From: Ectothiorhodosinus mongolicus
GTDB lineage: Bacteria > Pseudomonadota > Gammaproteobacteria > Ectothiorhodospirales > Ectothiorhodospiraceae
Assembly (NCBI RefSeq): GCF_022406875.1
Contig: NZ_CP023018.1
Span: forward strand, 345,575-409,574
Direction of reading: 5' to 3'
Length of the DNA: 64,000 nt
Position numbers and translations under genes: made by a program. This document shows positions 3,291 to 29,284 of the stretch, piece by piece (within the stretch, counting starts at the first letter, position 1; the number at the start of each line of letters is the position of its first letter). Below the pieces are notes generated by a model that was given only the letters and a program-made list of their open reading frames with translations, was not told the DNA's origin and searched no databases.

Positions 3291-4304
3291 TCAGCCATCC
3301 TGCTCGGCCCGCCAGCGCTGAAAGGTCGGGTGGCTGCGGTAGCCTTCGGTGAGCAGATACTCCATCACGGCATGCAGACGATGCTGACGCACAACGCTGT
3401 CGATACGAATCACCTCTTCGCCCGACGCGTCGAAGAACACTAGGGTGGGCGCATAATACAAACCCAGCTCGGACGCCCACGCTTCAGCACTTAGCGTTCG
3501 TCCATCGGGCAGCACCACGGATTCGTCTGACCACATATCCAGCTGCACCACATCGAATTGGCTGAGCAGCTGCTGCACGGCGGGATCGTTGAGTGGCTCG
3601 GTATGCAAGATATCGCAGGCGTGACACTCGCCCTGCTCAAAAAACACAATCAGTGGGCGAATGGGGTCTGACCCCCGCTGATTTAAGCGATGCGGTCCTG
3701 ACTGGAAAAAAGCCTGATCATTGAGGCCCGCCACATCAAAGCGCGGCGGCGGGTCAGCGCGGGCGAGATAATCGCGAAAGCTCTCGTTTTCATAATGACC
3801 ATCGGCGACGAACTCCAGCGCGGCGCGAAAGCGGTAAGGCGGATGGTAACCGCGCAGCCGGAACACAGCCTCGCCTTCCCGGTCGTAAAACAGCAGCGCT
3901 GGAGTGAAATTCAGGCCTTTTTCAATCGCGTATTGCCGTTCCGTTTTGACACGACCATCCAGATCGGTGAGCTCACGGCTGCCACGAATATCCAAACCCA
4001 CGACATTAAAATGCTCGCGGGTGTAGGCGAGAATATCCGCCGCTGCAAAGTTGACGGTGAATAAGGCCTCGCAGTAGGGACAGTGATCCATGCCGACATA
4101 TATCATAAGGCCGCGTTTGTCCTGCGCGCGTACGTTCGCGAGATCTTCGCGCAGATCCAACAACGAGCGTTCAAACCAGTCGGGGTGTTGCAGGCCGATA
4201 TGCCGCGGGCTGTCATCAATGGGCGGCTGTTCGCGCGCAGCCGTTGGACCCACCAAAAATATCAGCAGGCTCAGGCAAACCAAGCTGATCAGCGACTGAC
4301 GCAT
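3291..4304 (-). CDS. exported protein with two thioredoxin-like domains
   Basis: A 337-residue protein with a signal peptide (hydrophobic residues 5-20, cleavage probably after TAA near residue 23) and two thioredoxin-fold domains. Each has its own CxxC: CPYC at 75-78 and CHAC at 227-230, plus a cis-proline-type TPA/APT motif (FTPALLFY near 133, YAPTLVFF in the second domain). It resembles SoxW/DsbE-like periplasmic thioredoxins and probably reduces or relays thiols in the periplasm; the substrate is unknown. It begins 3 bases after serS ends, so the two are probably cotranscribed. A GGGGTCAGACCCC repeat core lies in frame near residues 210-215. Confidence 0.8.
   Translation of the reverse strand: MRQSLISLVCLSLLIFLVGPTAAREQPPIDDSPRHIGLQHPDWFERSLLDLREDLANVRAQDKRGLMIYVGMDHCPYCEALFTVNFAAADILAYTREHFNVVGLDIRGSRELTDLDGRVKTERQYAIEKGLNFTPALLFYDREGEAVFRLRGYHPPYRFRAALEFVADGHYENESFRDYLARADPPPRFDVAGLNDQAFFQSGPHRLNQRGSDPIRPLIVFFEQGECHACDILHTEPLNDPAVQQLLSQFDVVQLDMWSDESVVLPDGRTLSAEAWASELGLYYAPTLVFFDASGEEVIRIDSVVRQHRLHAVMEYLLTEGYRSHPTFQRWRAEQDG
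3661..3675. repeat. single-arm copy of the GGGG-N5-CCCC repeat core, inside a coding region
   Basis: The + strand reads ATGGGGTCTGACCCC, an imperfect palindrome sharing the GGGGTCTG...CCCC core with the hairpins at 15291-15349 and 16136-16194. It is read in frame by the thioredoxin-like gene as RGSDPI, between the two domains. It could be an in-frame insertion of a repeat arm or chance. Confidence 0.35.
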
Positions 4305-10534: not shown

Positions 10535-13129
10535 ATGAATACCCGTTACCGTAAATCCCTGCCCGGCACCCAGCTGGATTATTTTGATGCCCGCGAGGCG
10601 GTCAATGAAATTCAGCCGGGCGCTTGGGATGGACTGCCCTATACCAGCCGCGTACATGCTGAGAATCTGGTGCGCCGCTGTGATCCGGAGATGCTCACCG
10701 AGAGCCTTAAGCAGCTCATCGAGCGACGCCGCGATCAGGACTTTCCTTGGTTTCCGGCGCGGGTGGTCTGTCATGACATTTTGGGCCAAACGGCATTGGT
10801 GGACTTGGCGGGCCTGCGCGATGCGATCGCGGAAAAAGGCGGCGATCCGGCCAAGGTGAATCCCGTCGTGCCCACCCAGCTAATTGTCGATCACTCGTTA
10901 GCGGTGGAACATGCTGGCTTTGAAAAAGATGCCTTTGCGGCGAATCGGGCGGTGGAAGAGCGGCGCAATGAAGATCGCTTTCATTTCATCAACTGGACCA
11001 AGAAGGCGTTCCACAACGTGGATGTGATTCCGCCGGGTAATGGCATCATGCACCAGATCAATCTGGAGCGGATGTCACCGGTGGTGCATGCCCGCGACGG
11101 GGTGGCTTTTCCCGACACTTTGGTGGGCACCGACAGCCATACCCCGCATGTGGATGCTTTGGGTGTGATTGCCATTGGCGTGGGCGGCCTGGAAGCCGAA
11201 TCGGTGATGTTGGGCCGTGCCTCATGGATGCGCCTGCCGGATATTATCGGTGTGGAGCTCACCGGCAAGCCCCAGCCAGGCATTACCGCCACCGATATCG
11301 TGCTGGCGCTGACTGAATTTTTACGGCAGCAGAAAGTCGTCTCCGCGTATCTGGAGTTTTATGGCGAAGGCGCTGCCGCATTGACCGTGGGCGATCGGGC
11401 GACGATCTCGAACATGACCCCCGAATATGGCGCTTCAGCGGCGATGTTTTATATCGACCAGCAGACGCTGGATTACCTTAAGCTCACCGGCCGTGAGGAT
11501 GAGCAAATCCGCTTGGTCGAGACTTATGCCAAGACCGCAGGCTTTTGGGCCGATGATTTGCGCAGCGCCGAGTATGAGCGGGTGCTGCGCTTTGATTTAT
11601 CCAGCGTGGTACGCAACATCGCTGGCCCCTCGAATCCGCATAAGCGTGTGGCCACCGCCGATCTGGGCGCGGCCGGCATCAGCGGCAAGGTGGAAAACGA
11701 GCCGGGCTTGATGTCCGACGGCGCCTGCATCATCGCCGCCATCACCAGCTGTACCAATACCAGCAACCCGCGCAATGTGATTGCCGCCGGTCTCGTGGCG
11801 CGCAATGCCAATGCCCGCGGTCTGACGCGCAAACCTTGGGTAAAAACCTCGCTAGCGCCTGGCTCGAAAGCCGTGCAGCTGTACCTTGAAGAATCGGGGC
11901 TGCTGAGCGAACTGGAGAAGCTGGGTTTTGGCATTGTCGGCTTTGCCTGCACGACCTGTAATGGCATGAGCGGGGCTTTGGATCCGAAAATCCAGCAAGA
12001 AGTCATCGATCGCGACCTCTATGCCACGGCCGTGCTCTCGGGTAACCGCAATTTCGACGGGCGCATCCACCCCTACGCCAAGCAGGCCTTTTTGGCCTCG
12101 CCGCCCCTGGTGGTCGCCTATGCCATCGCCGGCACCGTGCGCTTTGATATCGAAAAAGACCCATTGGGGTACGACCCCAATGGCGAGCCGGTGACTTTGA
12201 AGGATCTTTGGCCCAGCGATGAAGAAATTGATGCCATCGTCCGCGATAGCGTCAAGCCGGAGTTTTTCCGCCAGGTTTATGAGCCGATGTTTGCTATTCA
12301 AAGCGATAACGGCGAGCGCGTCAGTCCCTTGTATGACTGGCGGCCAATGAGCACCTATATCCGTCGCCCGCCCTATTGGGAAGGGGCTTTGGCGGGTGAG
12401 CGTTCGCTGTCGGGCATGCGCGCCTTGGCGGTGTTGGGCGATAACATCACCACCGATCATCTGTCGCCGTCGAATGCGATTTTGGCCAGCAGTGCCGCCG
12501 GCGAGTATTTGGCGAAAATGGGCCTGCCTGAGGAAGACTTCAACTCCTATGCCACGCACCGCGGTGATCATCTCACGGCGCAGCGCGCGACTTTTGCCAA
12601 TCCCAAGCTCATCAATGAGATGGCCGTGGTTGATGGTGCGGTCAAACAAGGCTCGCTGACCCGGCTTGAGCCGGAAGGTCAGGTCATGCGCATGTGGGAG
12701 GCGATTGAAACCTATATGCAGCGTAAGCAACCGCTGATCATCATCGCCGGTGCCGATTACGGTCAGGGTTCATCGCGCGATTGGGCTGCCAAAGGTGTGC
12801 GCTTGGCTGGTGTTGAGGCCATTGTCGCTGAAGGCTTTGAGCGCATTCACCGCACGAATCTGATTGGTATGGGCGTGCTGCCTTTGGAGTTTGAGCCGGG
12901 TACCACGCGCAAAACCCTGGGCATCGATGGCACGGAGACCTTTGATGTGCGCGGTGAGCGTAGCCCTCGGGGTCGCTTAACCCTGGTGATTCAGCGCCGC
13001 GATGACGAAACGCTGGAAGTGCCGGTCGTGTGCCGTTTGGATACCGCCGAAGAGGTCTCGATTTATGAGGCTGGCGGTGTGCTGCAGCGCTTTGCCCAAG
13101 ACTTTTTGGCCTCGGAAAACGCCGCATGA
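10535..13129 (+). CDS. acnD: 2-methylcitrate dehydratase, Fe-S aconitase type
   Basis: An aconitase-family enzyme that dehydrates 2-methylcitrate to a methylaconitate in organisms lacking PrpD. It has 864 residues, with [4Fe-4S] ligands in SCTNTSNP and CTTCNGMSG and the C-terminal swivel domain motif YGQGSSRDWAAKG. The N-terminus (YRKSLPGTQLDYFDAREAV) and direct pairing with prpF distinguish it from AcnA. No prpD is present in the window. Its stop overlaps the prpF start (ATGA). Confidence 0.96.
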   Translation: MNTRYRKSLPGTQLDYFDAREAVNEIQPGAWDGLPYTSRVHAENLVRRCDPEMLTESLKQLIERRRDQDFPWFPARVVCHDILGQTALVDLAGLRDAIAEKGGDPAKVNPVVPTQLIVDHSLAVEHAGFEKDAFAANRAVEERRNEDRFHFINWTKKAFHNVDVIPPGNGIMHQINLERMSPVVHARDGVAFPDTLVGTDSHTPHVDALGVIAIGVGGLEAESVMLGRASWMRLPDIIGVELTGKPQPGITATDIVLALTEFLRQQKVVSAYLEFYGEGAAALTVGDRATISNMTPEYGASAAMFYIDQQTLDYLKLTGREDEQIRLVETYAKTAGFWADDLRSAEYERVLRFDLSSVVRNIAGPSNPHKRVATADLGAAGISGKVENEPGLMSDGACIIAAITSCTNTSNPRNVIAAGLVARNANARGLTRKPWVKTSLAPGSKAVQLYLEESGLLSELEKLGFGIVGFACTTCNGMSGALDPKIQQEVIDRDLYATAVLSGNRNFDGRIHPYAKQAFLASPPLVVAYAIAGTVRFDIEKDPLGYDPNGEPVTLKDLWPSDEEIDAIVRDSVKPEFFRQVYEPMFAIQSDNGERVSPLYDWRPMSTYIRRPPYWEGALAGERSLSGMRALAVLGDNITTDHLSPSNAILASSAAGEYLAKMGLPEEDFNSYATHRGDHLTAQRATFANPKLINEMAVVDGAVKQGSLTRLEPEGQVMRMWEAIETYMQRKQPLIIIAGADYGQGSSRDWAAKGVRLAGVEAIVAEGFERIHRTNLIGMGVLPLEFEPGTTRKTLGIDGTETFDVRGERSPRGRLTLVIQRRDDETLEVPVVCRLDTAEEVSIYEAGGVLQRFAQDFLASENAA

Positions 13130-14352: not shown

Positions 14353-15288
14353 ATGATGCAAGTGCCCACTCAGGCGCTAGGACATGGTATTACCCTGATC
14401 GATGTGCAGATCGGGCGACCGAATGTGGTGGCGGCGTATTTGCTGCAACAAGGGGATCGCGCGGTGTTTATTGATACCGGGGCGACGCGCTCGGTGCCGG
14501 CGCTGCTGCAGGTCTTGGAAAACCAGGGTGTGGATCGCGGCTGCGTGGATTATGTGATTCCGACGCATGTGCATTTAGATCATGGCGGTGGTGCTGGTGC
14601 GCTGCTTGAATACTTACCGGAGGCGCAGCTCATTATTCATCCGCTGGGCGCGCGGCACATGATCGATCCGACCAAGCTCAATGCCGGGGCTACCGCGGTT
14701 TATGGCGAAGAAGTAATGCAGCGAGTCTTTGGTGACCTAGTGCCGGTGCCTGAAGAGCGCATGATCATTGCCGAGGATGGGTTCGAAGTCGACTGGAATG
14801 GGCGCCTTTTAAAGTTTTTGGATACGCCGGGCCATGCCCGTCACCATTTTAGTGTGGTTGATGCCGCCAGTGACGGCGTCTTCACCGGCGATGCGTTTGG
14901 GCTGTCGTATCGGGAGTTTGACACCGATGAGACTGGGAATTTTGGTTTACCTACCAGCTCGCCCGTGCAGTTCGATCCTGAGGCCATGCACGCTTCGGTC
15001 GATAAGATCGTTCATGCCGGGCAGCGCTATTGTTACGTCACCCACTTTGGCCGAGTGCATGACGTCAAGCGCATACAAGGCAATTTGCATGAGCTTATCG
15101 ATATCTATGTAGAAACCGCTGCGGCTTATGCCGAGCAGTCGGCCGAGGGTCATCAGGCCCTGAGCGCTGCGCTGATGGACATCATCCTTGATCGCGCCGT
15201 GCAGCATGGCTGTGACATGCCACGCGACATCATGGCCGACCTCCTGCAGATGGACATGGACCTCAACGCCATGGGCCTCATTAAATAA
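14353..15288 (+). CDS. MBL-fold metallohydrolase linked to the methylcitrate operon
   Basis: A 311-residue metallo-beta-lactamase-fold hydrolase with the binuclear metal motif THVHLDHGG (H72, H74, D76, H77), a later metal ligand in TPGHARHHF, and FTGDAFG. AAGGAG lies 6 bases upstream of the first of two adjacent ATGs. It follows prpF by 30 bases and ends at a strong hairpin, so it is the last gene of the prp operon. The closest known types are glyoxalase II-like thioesterases; the substrate is unknown, and a CoA-thioester or reactive by-product is a guess. Confidence 0.85.
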   Translation: MMQVPTQALGHGITLIDVQIGRPNVVAAYLLQQGDRAVFIDTGATRSVPALLQVLENQGVDRGCVDYVIPTHVHLDHGGGAGALLEYLPEAQLIIHPLGARHMIDPTKLNAGATAVYGEEVMQRVFGDLVPVPEERMIIAEDGFEVDWNGRLLKFLDTPGHARHHFSVVDAASDGVFTGDAFGLSYREFDTDETGNFGLPTSSPVQFDPEAMHASVDKIVHAGQRYCYVTHFGRVHDVKRIQGNLHELIDIYVETAAAYAEQSAEGHQALSAALMDIILDRAVQHGCDMPRDIMADLLQMDMDLNAMGLIK

Positions 15289-15290
15289 GC

Positions 15291-15349
15291 AAAAAATGGG
15301 GACAGACCCCTTTTTTCATTTTGAAAAAAGGGGTCTGTCCCCATTTTTT
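15291..15349. repeat. 59-base perfect inverted repeat, left copy
   Basis: Two 28-base arms separated by TTT. Each arm carries the core GGGGACAGACCCC (or its complement) flanked by A6 and T6 runs. It starts two bases after the MBL hydrolase stop, so on the + strand its GC stem followed by T6 also works as an intrinsic terminator for the prp operon. Identical to the copy at 16136-16194. Confidence 0.9.
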
Positions 15350-15353
15350 GATT

Positions 15354-15382
15354 TTGCATCTTTTCACCACCATGACCATAAT
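15354..15382 (+). promoter_or_regulatory. sigma-70-type promoter of the toxin-antitoxin operon
   Basis: TTGCAT (15354-15359), a 17-base spacer, and CATAAT (15377-15382). It lies between the left hairpin and the antitoxin start, and its -10 element is embedded in the palindromic operator, which fits autorepression. Confidence 0.6.
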
Positions 15383-15388
15383 GGTCAT
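15372..15388. promoter_or_regulatory. palindromic operator of the toxin-antitoxin operon
   Basis: ATGACCATAATGGTCAT is a perfect palindrome around a central A and covers the -10 box. Phd/YefM antitoxins bind such palindromes to repress their own operon; binding here is inferred from position and symmetry. Confidence 0.6.
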
Positions 15389-15412
15389 AACAATCGAGTG
15401 GGAGGTGAGGTC

Positions 15413-15706
15413 ATGATTTCTGAGACGAGCGCAGTGAATTTCCGCCATAAGCTTGGCGAAATGCTCAATCAAGTGCAGTACCGCCACGATAGCGTTGTCA
15501 TCAATAAGGACGGAAAGCCCGTAGCCGTCTTGATTGATGCCCAACTATTTGAGCGCATCAGACGCATGCAAAATCGCTTCGACAGTCTGTGTCAGCGGCT
15601 GGAATCCGGGTTCGCTCATATCCCAGAGAATGAAGGACTGGCTGCGATTGACGCCGCCATTGCTGATGATCGCCGTGAGCGGGGTGAACCCTCGGGTCGT
15701 GACTAA
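15413..15706 (+). CDS. Phd/YefM-family antitoxin
   Basis: A 97-residue protein with the Phd/YefM N-terminal DNA-binding fold (SAVNFRHKLGEMLNQVQ, then VVINKDGKPVAVLI) and a charged C-terminal tail of the kind that wraps the toxin. The ATG follows GGAGGTGAGG; an in-frame extension reaching back through the left hairpin was rejected. It neutralises the PIN toxin downstream and probably represses the operon at 15372-15388. Its stop shares one base with the toxin start (TAATG). Confidence 0.88.
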   Translation: MISETSAVNFRHKLGEMLNQVQYRHDSVVINKDGKPVAVLIDAQLFERIRRMQNRFDSLCQRLESGFAHIPENEGLAAIDAAIADDRRERGEPSGRD

Positions 15707-16134
15707 TGAGCGCCGCACTGCGTGTGGTGTTGGACACCAACATTCTGCTCTCTGGCGTGGCTTATCCGCATAGCCTACCCGGCAAAATCGTCTCTGCCTG
15801 GCGTCATGGCTCACTTGAAGTGATTCTATCGACATTCATTCTTGATGAACTGAGGCGTGTGTTACCACGATTGCATGCCCAACATGGTCTCTCAGCCGCC
15901 GAAATCGATGATCTGGTGGACATCCTCTCGATTCAAGCTGAGGTTTTGCAGCCATTGCCTGTCGATGACCCAAACCTACGTGACAAAAATGACGGCCCCA
16001 TCTTGGGAACCCTTCTAGCGGCGGTGGAGCAGCAGAGCATCGATTACTTGATCACCGGCGACAAAGATTTACTGGTCTTATCCGACCAATATCCAGTGAT
16101 CACCCCAGCCGCTTTCTGGGAACGGCATGGTTAG
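15706..16134 (+). CDS. PIN-domain toxin (putative ribonuclease)
   Basis: A 142-residue protein of the PIN family (COG1569-like). The acidic residues expected for metal-dependent RNA cleavage are visible: D10 in VLDTN, E48 in LDELRR, D93/D96 in LRDKNDGPIL and D119/D121 in ITGDKDLL. The RNA target is unknown. It is translationally coupled to the antitoxin, and its stop lies one base before the right-hand hairpin. Confidence 0.9.
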   Translation: MSAALRVVLDTNILLSGVAYPHSLPGKIVSAWRHGSLEVILSTFILDELRRVLPRLHAQHGLSAAEIDDLVDILSIQAEVLQPLPVDDPNLRDKNDGPILGTLLAAVEQQSIDYLITGDKDLLVLSDQYPVITPAAFWERHG

Positions 16135-16135
16135 C

Positions 16136-16194
16136 AAAAAATGGGGACAGACCCCTTTTTTCATTTTGAAAAAAGGGGTCTGTCCCCATTTTTT
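16136..16194. repeat. 59-base perfect inverted repeat, right copy
   Basis: Base-for-base the same hairpin as 15291-15349. It separates the PIN toxin (+) from the convergent glcB (-), ending 12 bases from the glcB stop. With T6 on both sides it can act as a bidirectional terminator. Confidence 0.9.
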
Positions 16195-23975: not shown

Positions 23976-24791
23976 TCAGGCGGCTTGCAAAGCATCCATG
24001 GCACTGCGCATCTCGCGCAGGATACCACTAACGGCAGCTCTACCCTGCTCCGGGTTTTCGCTGTGCGCCGCGATTTGTTTGACCAGCGCACTTCCGACCA
24101 CCACGGCATCCGCCACCGCGGCCACCGCAGCTGCGGCATCGGCATCGCCGATACCAAAGCCCACACCTAAGGGCAGGCTGGTGTGTTGGCGAATCTGTTG
24201 GAGTTTTGTGGCCACCGACTCCACGTCCAAGCTAGCAGCCCCGGTCACGCCCTTAAGCGAGACGTAATAGATAAATCCAGAAGCACGTGCCGAGATGCGC
24301 TGCATACGACCAGCATCACTTGTCGGCGCCAACAAGAAGATCATATCGATACCCTGAGGCTTGAGCAGCTCACTGAGCTCATCGCTCTCCTCTGGGGGCA
24401 GATCCACGGTCAGCAGACCATCGACACCCGCCGCACTGGCTTTTTTGGCGAATTCACCATAGCCCATGATCTCGACAGGATTGAGGTAACCCATGAGGAC
24501 CACCGGCGTATGCTGATTGCTTTGGCGAAACTCTGCCACCATGTCGATCACCTGACGCAGGCTGACGTGGTGCTTCAAAGCACGTTCACAGGCTTGTTGA
24601 ATCACCGGACCATCAGCCATGGGATCAGAAAATGGTATCCCCAGTTCAATGATGTCAGCGCCAGCCTCCACCATCGCATGCATCAAAGGCACGGTGTTTT
24701 CCGGCATAGGATCGCCGGCAGTAACATAAGGAATCAGAGCCTTGCGGCCTTCTTGTTTTAGGCGGGTAAAACATTGAGCAATGCGACTCAC
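23976..24791 (-). CDS. trpA: tryptophan synthase alpha subunit
   Basis: Cleaves indole-3-glycerol phosphate to indole, which is channelled to TrpB. The 271-residue TIM barrel shows [17 protein letters not shown] with the catalytic Glu/Asp pair and the phosphate-binding [10 protein letters not shown]. Its ATG overlaps the trpB stop (ATGA). Confidence 0.98.
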
Positions 24792-26017
24792 AGCGTAATC
24801 CCCTCGATACGGGCCACGGTATTGATGTCTTTGTCACCGCGTCCGGAGAGATTGATGATGATGCCCTGATCCGGGCGCATCTCGGCGGCCAGCTTCATGG
24901 CATAGGCCACGGCATGACTGGTTTCTAGGGCAGGAATAATGCCTTCGGTACGGGTCAGGTGATGGAAAGCCTTCATAGCCTCGTCATCCGTCACCGAGAC
25001 ATAGTGGGCTCGCCCCATATCTTTCAGCCAAGCATGCTCTGGACCGACCCCCGGGTAGTCTAAACCGGCGGACACCGAGTGGGTCTCGATGATCTGGCCA
25101 TCAGCATCTTCCATTAAATACGTACGGTTGCCATGCAACACCCCGGGCTTGCCCGCGTTCAGTGGCGCGGAATGGCGGCCGGTATCGATGCCGTCGCCTG
25201 CGGCCTCGACGCCATACAAAGCCACGCTCTCATCATCGAGGAAGGGGTGAAACAGACCGATAGCATTGGAGCCACCGCCCACGCAGGCAACCAGAGCATC
25301 GGGGAGACAACCGTGGTCATCCAAATACTGCTGGCGCGCTTCACGTCCGATCACGGCCTGAAAATCGCGCACCATGGCGGGGTATGGATGGGGACCAGCC
25401 ACCGTACCGATAATATAGAAGGTATTATCCACAAAGCTCACCCAGTCACGCATGGCCTCATTCAGCGCATCCTTCAGCGTTTGCGAGCCGGATTTCACGG
25501 CAACCACTTCCGCGCCCAGCAAGCGCATGCGAAACACATTCGGCGCTTGACGCTGAATATCCTCAGCGCCCATGAATACGACGCATTCCAAGCCTAAGCG
25601 CGCCGCCACCGTGGCTGTGGCCACGCCATGTTGACCGGCACCGGTTTCGGCGATGATGCGCGTCTTGCCCATGCGTTTGGCGAGCAGCGCCTGGCCAATG
25701 GTGTTGTTCACCTTGTGGGCGCCGGTGTGGTTTAGGTCTTCGCGCTTGAGATAAATCTGCGCACCGCCGATCTCGCGACTCATGCGCTCGGCATGATAAA
25801 GCGGGCTGGGACGTCCGACGTAACGGGCCAGATCCAGATCCAGTTCGCGCAGGAACTCGGGATCCTTCATGTATTTATGATAGGCCTCTTCCAGTTCGAC
25901 CAAAGGCTCCATCAGCGTTTCCGAGACGAAACGCCCGCCATAGGGTCCGAAGTGCCCCCGAGTATCGGGGAAAGCACTCCAGTCGGTGACCTGTTCAGAC
26001 TTAATGACTGTCGACAC
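24788..26017 (-). CDS. trpB: tryptophan synthase beta subunit
   Basis: PLP enzyme that joins indole and serine. The family begins near [23 protein letters not shown] lysine is in [15 protein letters not shown]. The GTG at 26017 was chosen as start: GAGG lies about 8 bases upstream, it gives a normal 409-residue protein, and it overlaps the end of trpF by 17 bases. A longer in-frame ATG start inside trpF would add 26 residues with no family match. Confidence 0.96.
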
Positions 26018-26627
26018 GGCTGACCTCGTTGAGAAATTCCTGAATACGTTTGGGATCCTTAATACCCGGCGAAGTTTCAACGCCACTACTGACATCTACC
26101 GCATAGGGCCGGGTTTGCTTGATTGCTTGTGCCACATTCGTAGCGTCAAGTCCACCCGCCAGCAGCAAAGTGCGGTCTTTAAGACCGGGCCAGCGCGACC
26201 AGTCAAAGGTCTTGCCGCTGCCGCCGGCGGCGCCGCTGGCATGGCTGTCCAATAAAAAGCCCTTGGCTTTGCCGTGCTTTTGCATTTGCTGCTCGGGACT
26301 TTGGGCATCACCCATGGCAATCGCCTTGATGTAGTCATGCTGAAAGCGGGCACAAAACTCAGCCGACTCGCGGCCATGAAACTGTAATAAGTCGATGGGC
26401 AATGCCGCCAATGCCGCCTCTACCTCAGCTTCGCTGGGATCCACGAATAACGCAACCCGCGTCACCATGGGCGGCAAGGCAGCGATAATGGCCTCAGCTT
26501 GTTGTAGGCTAACACAGCGCTGACTGCCGCCCCAGAACACTAGGCCGATGGCATCGCAGCCCGCCTCAGCAGCCACCACCCCATCGTTCGGTCGAGTGAT
26601 ACCACAGATTTTGACTCGGGTTCGCAT
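26001..26627 (-). CDS. trpF: phosphoribosylanthranilate isomerase
   Basis: Amadori rearrangement in tryptophan synthesis. The 208-residue TIM barrel has the catalytic cysteine in KICGITRP, an aspartate in [14 protein letters not shown], and the phosphate-binding [14 protein letters not shown]. It heads the trpFBA run; truA, often found upstream in relatives, is replaced here by tRNA-Ser and a palindrome. Confidence 0.97.
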
Positions 26628-26641
26628 ATCACCAACACACC

Positions 26642-26683
26642 AATGGGGTCGTACCCCATCCAGAGATGGGGTACGACCCCATT
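26642..26683. repeat. 42-base perfect inverted repeat between tRNA-Ser and trpF
   Basis: Two 18-base arms (core GGGGTCGTACCCC and its complement) with loop CCAGAG. The arms are built like the 59-base hairpins: an imperfect GGGG-N5-CCCC palindrome nested in a larger perfect one. It starts 6 bases after the tRNA 3' end and 14 bases before the trpF ATG, on the minus-strand transcript. It may terminate the tRNA transcript or shape the trpF leader, though no T-run follows. Confidence 0.85.
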
Positions 26684-26689
26684 TGTATT

Positions 26690-26779
26690 TGGCGGAGAGG
26701 GAGGGATTCGAACCCTCGAAGGAGTTGCCCCCTTAACGGTTTTCGAGACCGTCCCGTTCAACCGCTCCGGCACCTCTCC
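26690..26779 (-). tRNA. tRNA-Ser (anticodon CGA)
   Basis: A 90-base class II tRNA read on the minus strand, 5' GGAGAGG acceptor pairing with CCTCTCC, discriminator G and encoded CCA. The anticodon stem ACGGT/ACCGT encloses loop CTCGAAA, anticodon CGA (codon UCG). The long variable arm (GGGGGCAACTCC region) and GGTTCGAATCC T-arm are intact. Confidence 0.97.
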
Positions 26780-26804
26780 AGTTTTTTCTTGCAAGCGGTC
26801 GGGT

Positions 26805-26834
26805 AGTATAGACGAGTGTTCTTTCTGGTGACAG
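26805..26834 (-). promoter_or_regulatory. candidate promoter of tRNA-Ser
   Basis: On the minus strand CTGTCA, an 18-base spacer, then TATACT, ending 25 bases upstream of the mature tRNA 5' end. It overlaps the 5' end of the divergent mltF region. Confidence 0.5.
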
Positions 26835-26838
26835 CGCT

Positions 26839-28284
26839 ATGCGGATACCACATCCCCACTTGACGCGATTACAAAGAGCCGAGGTAATTGCCTTGGTGTT
26901 GTTGGTGGTGGTCACCCTGCTGTTTGTCACCGCCAATCCGGGCAATACCCTGCAGCAGGCTCAAAACCGCGGTGAATTAGTCGTGGCCATGCGAATCGGC
27001 AACACGACCTATTTGCCGTCGCCGGAAGGGGCCACTGGGTTTGAATATGAGATGGCCAAGGCCTTTGCTGACTGGTTGGATGTCGATCTTAAAATCGTGG
27101 TGCCAGGTCGCTTTGATGCCATCTTGAACCGCACGGCGCGCGGCAAGGTTCACCTCGCCGCTGCCGGCATCACCATCACGCCCGAGCGTGAAGCGTATCT
27201 GCGTTTTGGCCCCAGCTATCTGCAAATCACCGAACAGTTAATCCATCGCCCCAGCGAAACCGGGCGCATTAGGACCATTGAGGATCTCGCCGATCGACAG
27301 ATTGTGGTGGTCTCCGGTACAGCCCATATTGAAACCTTACGCTTGCTTCAAGAGATGCATCCCTTTATCACCTGGGAAGAGATTCCTCGCGCTGATCCGG
27401 AAGAGCTTTTGCGCCGCGTCTGGGAAGGCAATATCGAAGCCACGATTGTTGATTCGATTGAACTGAGTGCGACGCAGCGCTTTTACCCCGGCCTGCGCGC
27501 AGCTTTGGATCTCACTGAGCCGAAATCATTGGCTTGGGCATTCCCCAAAACCACCGATTTGAGCCTGTTCAACGAAGCTGAGGCCTTTTTTGTGTACTTA
27601 AAATCCACCGGCTTATTGGAGCAGATGTTAGAACGCTATTTCGGTCATTTAGATGTGATCGATCAGGCGGGTATGATCCGATTTTTACGGGAGGCACGTG
27701 AGAGTTTGCCCACGTTTGAGCCTTTGTTTCGCGAAGCGGCCCGTCAATATGACTTGGATTGGCGCCTACTGGCTGCCATCAGCTATCAAGAATCTCATTG
27801 GAACCCCAATGCTGTCTCGCGCACCGGCGTTCGAGGCTTGATGATGCTGACTCTGGCAACCGCCGGTGAATTGGGGGTTGAGGATCGCCTCGATCCACGC
27901 GCCTCGGTGTTTGGTGGCACCCAATATCTCATCAACTTGCGAGACCGCCTCCCCGAGCGCATTCAGGAACCAGATCGCACTTGGATGGCTTTGGCCGCTT
28001 ACAACATCGGCATGGGTCACCTGCACGATGCTCGAGCCATTACCCAAAGGCAGGGAAAAGATCCGGATCGTTGGCTGGACGTTATGGAATATCTGCCCCT
28101 TTTGTCTCGGCCGGAGTGGCACAGTCAAACCCGCTTTGGCTACGCGCGCGGCTGGGAGCCTGTGCAATATGTGCAGAACATCCGCGCTTTCTATGATGTG
28201 CTGAATTGGCTGGCAGCTGGTGGCGAGCTGGGACGAATGCCCTCCAGTCTGCAAATCATGGACATCTTCCCTCGTGGCCTATAA
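26839..28284 (+). CDS. mltF: membrane-bound lytic transglycosylase F
   Basis: Cleaves peptidoglycan between MurNAc and GlcNAc with 1,6-anhydro bond formation. The 481-residue protein has an N-terminal hydrophobic export/anchor segment (about 15-32), an SBP_bac_3-like regulatory domain (about 45-265), and a C-terminal SLT domain whose catalytic Glu lies in ISYQESHWNPNAVS, followed by GVRGLMML and AAYNIGMGHLHDA. Start ATG is at the first codon able to precede the hydrophobic segment. Confidence 0.94.
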   Translation: MRIPHPHLTRLQRAEVIALVLLVVVTLLFVTANPGNTLQQAQNRGELVVAMRIGNTTYLPSPEGATGFEYEMAKAFADWLDVDLKIVVPGRFDAILNRTARGKVHLAAAGITITPEREAYLRFGPSYLQITEQLIHRPSETGRIRTIEDLADRQIVVVSGTAHIETLRLLQEMHPFITWEEIPRADPEELLRRVWEGNIEATIVDSIELSATQRFYPGLRAALDLTEPKSLAWAFPKTTDLSLFNEAEAFFVYLKSTGLLEQMLERYFGHLDVIDQAGMIRFLREARESLPTFEPLFREAARQYDLDWRLLAAISYQESHWNPNAVSRTGVRGLMMLTLATAGELGVEDRLDPRASVFGGTQYLINLRDRLPERIQEPDRTWMALAAYNIGMGHLHDARAITQRQGKDPDRWLDVMEYLPLLSRPEWHSQTRFGYARGWEPVQYVQNIRAFYDVLNWLAAGGELGRMPSSLQIMDIFPRGL

Positions 28285-28321
28285 GAGTTTATAAAGTATC
28301 CGACAAAACAAGGGAAAACTC

Positions 28322-28825
28322 GTGAAAAATAAATTTCTAAGGATAGCCCTAAGCGGTCTTCTGTTCTCTTTCGTCATTTTTCCAGCCACATCATTTGCGG
28401 ACATTTCTCGACTGAGTTTCGGCGTCGGCCAATATGACGTGATCAATACAGTGGATAGCGCGGCTGATTTTCGTGTGGAGTATAGACTCAGCGAGCCTAT
28501 GCTATTTGACCTACTGACCCCCTGGGTGGGTCTGGAAGTGACCAGCGACGAGACGGTCTGGGGCGGTGGTGGATTATTGTTCGATTACCCCATCGGTAAT
28601 CGTTGGTATTTAGTACCCAGCCTCGGAGTCGGCCTTTATGATCGGGGCCGCAGTGCACTTCGTCTCGGGCATGTTATCGAGTTTCGCTCGCAGCTTGAGC
28701 TGGCTTATCAATTTGATAACCTCAGCCGCGTGGCTTTTGCCATCAGCCACCTATCCAATGCCAGCCTGAGCAGCGACAACCCCGGCGTCGAAGTGCTCAC
28801 TTTGTATTGGCAGATACCCTACTGA
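28322..28825 (+). CDS. PagL-like lipid A 3-O-deacylase (acyloxyacyl hydrolase)
   Basis: An outer-membrane beta-barrel enzyme that removes an acyl chain from lipid A. The 167-residue precursor has a signal peptide (about 1-26, ending SFA). The active-site block reads SHLSNASLSSDNPGVEVLTL: His143, Ser145 and Glu157 keep the same 2- and 14-residue spacing as the catalytic triad of Pseudomonas PagL (H126, S128, E140). It follows mltF by 37 bases. The first 60 bases are AT-rich compared with neighbours. Confidence 0.85.
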   Translation: MKNKFLRIALSGLLFSFVIFPATSFADISRLSFGVGQYDVINTVDSAADFRVEYRLSEPMLFDLLTPWVGLEVTSDETVWGGGGLLFDYPIGNRWYLVPSLGVGLYDRGRSALRLGHVIEFRSQLELAYQFDNLSRVAFAISHLSNASLSSDNPGVEVLTLYWQIPY

Positions 28826-28831
28826 GGTTGC

Positions 28832-29284
28832 TCAGCGACGTTCGCGAAAAAAGCGGCGCAACATCTCACTGCAGTCATCGGCCACAATGCCGGATGTCAC
28901 GGCTATTTTGTGGTTGTAGACCGAAAGATTCAGTAGGTCCGCCGCACCGCCTACAGCCCCTGTTTTTGGGTCGCTTGCGCCAAAAACCAAACGCGCAATC
29001 CGCGCATGCACCATGGCTGCAATACACATGGGGCATGGCTCTAGGGTGACATATAGGGCGCAGTCATTGAGGCGATAATTGCCCAGCACCTGACCAGCCG
29101 CCCGCATGGCCACGATCTCGGCATGGGCACTGGGGTCATGACAACCAATCGGCTGATTATACCCCTGAGCGATCAACTCGCCATCCCGCACGATCACCGC
29201 ACCCACCGGTACTTCACCGGCCTTGGCAGCCAAATCTGCCTGCGCCAGTGCCAAGCGCATCCAATCCGTATCTCGCTCAGTCAT
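28832..29284 (-). CDS. tadA: tRNA(Arg) adenosine-34 deaminase
   Basis: Converts A34 to inosine in tRNA-Arg(ACG). The 150-residue cytidine-deaminase-fold protein has the zinc motif HAEIVAMRAA with catalytic Glu and PCPMCIAAMVHARI. It is upstream of neither gua gene in reading order but lies after guaA on the same strand, 48 bases beyond it. Convergent with the PagL-like gene, 6 bases apart. Confidence 0.95.
   Translation of the reverse strand: MTERDTDWMRLALAQADLAAKAGEVPVGAVIVRDGELIAQGYNQPIGCHDPSAHAEIVAMRAAGQVLGNYRLNDCALYVTLEPCPMCIAAMVHARIARLVFGASDPKTGAVGGAADLLNLSVYNHKIAVTSGIVADDCSEMLRRFFRERR

Follow-up and report, generated by a model that had tools for sequence, protein, structure and literature searches.

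A dispersed GGGG-N5-CCCC palindromic repeat at the tRNA-Ser/trpF junction of Ectothiorhodosinus mongolicus

Why does a perfect palindrome occupy the short gap between a tRNA gene and trpF, and is it a signal of these two genes or one copy of something wider? In the window that we analyzed, a stretch of 64,000 nucleotides of the Ectothiorhodosinus mongolicus chromosome, the palindrome spans 26642-26683 and reads AATGGGGTCGTACCCCATC-CAGA-GATGGGGTACGACCCCATT. Repeat search and folding give a perfect inverted repeat with arms of 19 nt and a loop of 4 nt, and the arms reach 22 nt if one mismatch is allowed (26639-26686); the preliminary description was thus right about the perfect symmetry and one base short on the arms, which it put at 18. 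It is the third listed of 11 inverted repeats in the window with arms of at least 14 nt that are at most 60 nt apart, preceded by the hairpins at 15.3 and 16.2 kb. The genome pattern search places one unit, GGGGTCGTACCCC of the TCGTA subtype, at 26645-26657 on the plus strand and a second at 26668-26680 on the minus strand, which reads GGGGTACGACCCC on the plus strand. As each arm is a GGGG-N5-CCCC stem-loop of its own, the nested design that had been proposed is indeed present. The palindrome starts 6 nt past the encoded CCA of tRNA-Ser(CGA) (26690-26779, minus strand), and the ATG of trpF (26001-26627, minus strand) lies 14 nt beyond its other end; the trpF start called here fits most of the relatives' matches, in which residue 1 or 2 is the first to align. 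On the trpF strand, the 81-nt RNA around the palindrome folds at -49.8 kcal/mol as against -23.4 (sd 3.0) in 200 shuffles, that is, 8.9 sd below them.

Our searches of the complete genome (1,995,095 bases, one contig) revealed that the palindrome is far from solitary. The general pattern GGGGWCNKWCCCC was matched 182 times in forward and 194 times in reverse orientation, with some sites matching on both strands, while the backward control gave 0 and 1; the exact TCGTA-subtype unit GGGGTCGTACCCC occurs 143 times (66 + 77) as compared with 0 for its control. Because exact patterns were used to find the family, degenerate copies are under-counted in these figures. A chance palindrome, to which we give a negligible probability, is ruled out by this copy number, and the fold far below the shuffles speaks against it as well. 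What repeats is a stem-loop of 13 nt (GGGG-N5-CCCC), flanked in most cases by A/T, and a larger hairpin results where two units are inverted. Even sampling of the genome with 18 stretches, each of 20 kb, gave 48 GGGG-N5-CCCC sites, of which 27 were of the TCGTA type and 10 of the TCAGA type. The TCGTA, TCAGA, and ACAGA subtypes co-occur, even inside one cluster, and since they mix in this way, the earlier suggestion of one repeat family with constant GGGG/CCCC shoulders and variable middles holds. The three window copies (15.3, 16.2, and 26.6 kb) were aligned. The related hairpins, at 15287-15353 and 16136-16194, are of the ACAGA subtype; they lie upstream and downstream, respectively, of one toxin-antitoxin pair (15413-16134), which consists of a Phd-type antitoxin gene and a PIN-family toxin gene. 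The pair is bracketed in the manner of a repeat-bounded cassette (15287-16194).

Units are paired in a non-random manner. Adjacent units belong to the same subtype class in 60 of 95 pairs (39.7 expected) and are exactly complementary in 41 of 95 (25.8 expected, sd 3.4; maximum of 40 in 5000 re-pairings), so the covariation of arms that had been put forward as a check is seen beyond chance. The commonest dimer of the TCGTA subtype is TACGA>TCGTA, with 29 in the genome at spacers of 2-20, and among the 31 TCGTA dimers whose order was recorded, 28 are TACGA>TCGTA and 3 are TCGTA>TACGA. The copy at 26642-26683 is one of these three; apart from this rarer orientation and its lack of a T-run, it is an ordinary member of the family. 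High copy number, dispersal, inverted dimers, and species specificity, by which REP-like repeats are recognized, are all found here. Among the stretches read, L038 (7582-10599, about 1.4036-1.4066 Mb of the genome) holds three similar tandem genes of 316-324 codons on the minus strand with repeat units between them, and these genes share 232-270 identical positions without gaps. In another stretch, L041 (250001-270000 of the genome), one minus-strand ORF, a giant gene, fills all 20 kb. The DnaA-box-like TTATCCACA directly adjoins the GGGG of a unit at three places (L054 7668; L055 8881 and 11979), while the 9-mer occurs 7 times in all in the 464 kb searched, where 2.4 would be expected; three of seven are too few to build on, and we set this link aside.

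We then looked at the distribution of the repeat beyond this genome. The TACGA>TCGTA dimer was absent from 368 other genomes drawn evenly across the class, one of them a further member of the genus; in a collection of 84,980 species it appeared as three isolated stretches, and in the viral contigs it was not seen. The plasmid collection gave no match to the 26642-26683 copy. In the genus relative G007, of which 1.12 Mb was read, there are 62 GGGG-N5-CCCC sites with no dominant centre and no TCGTA unit, and no TCGTA was found among the matches listed for six genus relatives. Among 58 genomes that include the present one, G029 (47/48), G009 (39/39), and G041 (16/16) are likewise rich in the general unit. 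As no paper in the literature searched carries the unit sequences, they are not in print as such within that literature. The TCGTA subtype is therefore nearly restricted, as far as searched, to the genome of E. mongolicus.

Where copies are intergenic, they sit just behind the 3' ends of genes. This was examined on 21 stretches (464 kb in total; L037 and L038 among them were picked for their content), which hold 42 clusters, with genes called by a custom script. Of these clusters 29 were intergenic, and for 16 of the 29 the distance to a gene 3' end was 15 nt or less, with an overlap in two cases; 2000 random placements averaged 2.8 such clusters and never exceeded 13. Where a stop codon precedes an element by 4-5 nt, it is TAA in 17 of 21 cases, compared with 147 of 369 sampled genes. 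The tRNA genes follow the same pattern. A family unit starts 10-19 nt behind 6 of the 42 tRNAs and the related GGGAC[AG]GATTTAT repeat is found behind two more (8/42 in total), while neither occurs within 60 nt upstream of any of the 42; one tRNA has three units 63-98 nt upstream, and one further upstream match (GGGGCCATGCCCC) falls outside the family and was left out of the count. The preliminary description took the tRNA 3' end to be a common landing site; such ends are favoured, though as part of a wider gene-3'-end rule and not as a special target.

A hairpin immediately behind a tRNA raises the question of whether the palindrome is simply the intrinsic terminator of tRNA-Ser. In 6 of the 8 element-bearing tRNAs the element does form a terminator-like hairpin, as against any terminator-like hairpin within 100 nt in 8 of the 34 tRNAs that lack an element. 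The 26642-26683 copy, however, is one of the two tRNA-adjacent elements without such a form: the scan found no T-run on the trpF strand and a terminator-like site solely on the opposite strand, which rules out a canonical intrinsic terminator on the strand of these genes. The only promoter-like match precedes the tRNA, a sigma-70-like sequence at 26805-26834 on the minus strand (9/12 by consensus match alone), and no second match was seen in 26400-27000, including the space between the palindrome and the trpF start. Since the 14-nt gap holds no promoter match, full termination would silence trpF, and we consider the terminator reading improbable. Next to coding genes, T-runs behind elements are on the gene strand in 20 of 38 cases and on the other strand in 18 of 38, so a terminator role is not generally seen. 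The position of the promoter match suggests instead a joint tRNA-Ser/trpF transcript with the hairpin in between; as there is no T-run on the trpF strand, the predicted hairpin would probably be non-terminating and may protect or delimit the processed ends.

The proximity of the palindrome to trpF, at 14 nt, could alternatively indicate a leader or attenuator of the trp genes. From 34 relatives with a trpF match we fetched 29 trpF loci and scanned them for palindromes with arms of at least 11 nt and loops of 3-8 (L119 and L124 contain runs of N). In all 29, this palindrome is absent from trpF and no tRNA is present in the fetched locus, and 22 of them have truA no more than 1.5 kb upstream of trpF, much as the preliminary description had stated; in E. 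mongolicus itself truA is at 1.56 Mb, apart from trpF. The tRNA/trpF junction is rearranged in this genome. Unrelated palindromes were seen in loci L123, L124, L125, L128, and L134. In the three relatives of genus g4 (L123, L124, and L125), a GTTACTTT-type palindrome lies upstream of trpF in each, with a 60-nt one also in L123. That these three genomes carry other, unrelated palindromes upstream of trpF could be taken in favour of a leader. Nevertheless, the absence from all 29 fetched loci rules out a conserved trp leader, which had been named, along with a lack of further copies in the genome, as a finding that would overturn the repeat reading, and neither of the two holds; moreover, the TCGTA unit is dispersed genome-wide and the Rfam scan of 24000-29000 brought no family but tRNA to the cut-off. 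A trp leader is thus a very improbable explanation.

Our preferred reading, held with modest confidence, is that 26642-26683 is a dimeric copy of a REP-like, GTAG-less palindromic family that has multiplied in this lineage. Intergenic dimers and clusters would have been inserted as hairpins of single-stranded DNA, a substrate of the type on which RAYT (Y1) transposases act, and insertions would have been kept where a hairpin behind a gene is harmless or serves as a 3' boundary. The present copy may mark the place where trpF, parted from truA, came behind tRNA-Ser. The link to a transposase is uneven. The 3.3-kb locus of a RAYT in relative G029 (L075) contains 13 TCAGA-type units, and this RAYT is 41% identical over 211 aa to the protein of the one Y1 transposase gene found in E. 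mongolicus. Against NF047646, the model for REP-associated tyrosine transposases, the G029 protein scores 83.7 bits and that of E. mongolicus 67.6 bits (cut-off 80). No TCGTA unit occurs within 10 kb of the E. mongolicus Y1 gene, which is flanked by the related repeat GGGAC[AG]GATTTATTT (15 copies in its 20-kb stretch), and this related repeat is just as dense in the sampled stretch L044 (17 copies) as beside the Y1 gene. Also missing are the tags typical of REPs: of 121 clusters, 2 have GTAG/CTAC and 1 has CGTC/GACG at a distance of up to 8 nt. The family is therefore RAYT-linked in one relative, where the TCAGA subtype flanks the transposase gene, and the TCGTA subtype is an orphan in its own genome, as none lies near the Y1 gene; we infer RAYT-type spread for the family, weakly so for the TCGTA subtype. 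The Y1 gene itself ends in its own repeat, with the C-terminus MGTDLFKKGTDLLKN encoded by GGGGAC[AG]GATTTATT copies (L036 1144-1195).

The units inside genes place a further constraint on insertion. Of the 121 clusters in the stretches read, 40 fall within called genes, and 27 of the 40 are single units. A spanning ortholog, drawn from a third of relative G007 and from other relatives' loci, was found for 18 of the 40. Of the single units with any spanning ortholog, 12 of 13 show no indel within 9 aa, while all five multi-unit copies change the length (Fisher p 0.0007 against singles). As four of the 13 are aligned at only 36-39% identity, one with a gap nearby, we used the stricter set at 50% identity or more, in which 9 of 9 are gapless; gaps occur in 71 of 1335 background windows across in-gene alignments of that identity. 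The aligned core differs from the relative at 6.2 of 13 positions, compared with 4.5 in flanking 13-mers, a difference that fits gradual change as well as block replacement. For instance, a single TACGA unit in acnD (12166-12178, plus strand) leaves the length as in the relatives, with LGYDPNGE in place of LGVDADGN or LGHDADGN, and at the in-gene unit of truA the GYDP motif is native in two relatives. The coding-DNA listing also gives a single TCTGA/TCAGA unit at 3663-3675 (minus strand) in the ORF at 3291-4304. In PheT, a two-unit copy adds 7 aa relative to all nine genus relatives. Insertion as the origin of all in-gene units is hence ruled out for the singles because they are length-neutral, and is kept for PheT.

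Neither are the in-gene units a product of chance, which is ruled out by synonymous-codon shuffles: the sampled coding DNA contains 11 exact TCGTA-type units, five of them single, while the average over 60 shuffles was 0.07 and no shuffle had more than 1. Among 28 controls with shuffled centres, 27 had no exact hit and one had 6; in the same comparison TCAGA, a family subtype and a permutation of TACGA, also scores 6. One-mismatch TCGTA sites number 2 as against the 11 exact, and an uptake-like build-up of near matches was not clearly seen for TCGTA in the coding DNA sampled. The subtype is also unevenly spread along the chromosome. We read 134 of the 143 TCGTA sites in sequence context, and 98 of them fall in the half around dif (p 8e-8), as do 62 of 86 TCGTA clusters (p 5e-5); sites are rare near dnaA, which lies with gyrB at 1.014-1.019 Mb, and the even sample of all units agrees with this gradient (Spearman -0.65, p 0.004). 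The dif-like site ATTGCGCATAATATATATTATGTTAAAT is at 96,972-96,999, and a TACGA/TCGTA element starts 3 nt beyond it (L222 6173-6249, that is, 96,972-97,048).

These observations bring in another explanation, namely that the 13-mer is a putative double-stranded recognition site under genome-wide selection or drive, like the DNA uptake sequences (DUS) of Neisseria and Pasteurellaceae or like chromosome-domain sites of the matS type, with inverted pairs behind genes as a by-product and in-gene singles arising via substitution. In-gene copies far above chance and without insertion, as an uptake-type word would have, and concentration around the terminus, as for matS, are both found, and inverted DUS pairs have been described as terminators in PMC2397512. 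On the other hand, one-mismatch coding sites are in no clear excess, several subtypes coexist, 143 sites in 2 Mb are sparse for uptake, multi-unit in-gene copies alter length, and the TCGTA subtype was not found in the relatives' DNA searched or read. We also know of no protein that binds the 13-mer. Such a site is possible, if unlikely. The same data weigh on REP-like insertion, which cannot produce length-neutral singles and gives no account of a subtype gathered around dif. Given the in-gene copies of substitution type and the gradient toward the terminus, there is still a place for a recognition word under selection or drive. A combined version, tentative and in our judgement doubtful, takes GGGGTNNGACCCC, usually with T/A flanks, to be a word recognized throughout the genome and maintained by selection or drive, chiefly in the terminus half, which enters genes by length-neutral substitution and builds hairpins behind them, an uptake-like or terminus-domain site grown from a REP-type repeat. 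Here a subtype of a REP-like family is limited to one species, as far as the searches reach, and no transposase was found next to it. If these observations hold, transposition is not the only way in which short palindromic words can spread, and the boundaries between REPs, uptake sequences, and chromosome-domain sites may be gradual.

Among known systems, REPs are usually explained as inserted hairpins moved by RAYTs. They are short, species-specific palindromes in inverted dimers and mosaics behind gene 3' ends, some of them in-frame in genes (PMC3733652; PMC2817692). The present repeat resembles the REP/REPIN/BIME elements with RAYT (TnpA-REP) in its short palindromes, inverted dimers, species specificity, and gene-3'-end position, and in the TCAGA subtype that flanks the RAYT of G029; it differs in having no GTAG/CGTC tag, no TCGTA unit near the Y1 gene found, length-neutral in-gene singles, and a distribution centred on the terminus. 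GTAG REPs supply TAG stop codons (PMC3733652), to which the TAA stops that prevail before the elements here are a parallel. Atypical REPs of TnpA-REP subclass 2.6/RAYT group 5 lack GT[AG]G (PMC6006769), a likeness to our family, although the TCGTA subtype is not beside the Y1 gene. With DUS/USS the repeat shares inverted pairs that form hairpins behind genes and in-gene singles without insertion, and it differs in its several subtypes and its terminus-centred distribution. DUS copy numbers are far above those of the present repeat. The matS sites of the Ter macrodomain are likewise a 13-bp word concentrated in the terminus region, with a consensus sequence that differs from the present 13-mer. 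They number 23 in 800 kb (PMC3330122), and the present repeat has more copies and forms inverted dimers behind genes. The last comparison is with the Rickettsia palindromic elements, to which the additional 7 aa of PheT bear a likeness and whose unit is much longer than 13 nt. Those elements are in-frame palindromes in genes (PMC3733652), and the copy at 26642-26683 differs from them in being intergenic.
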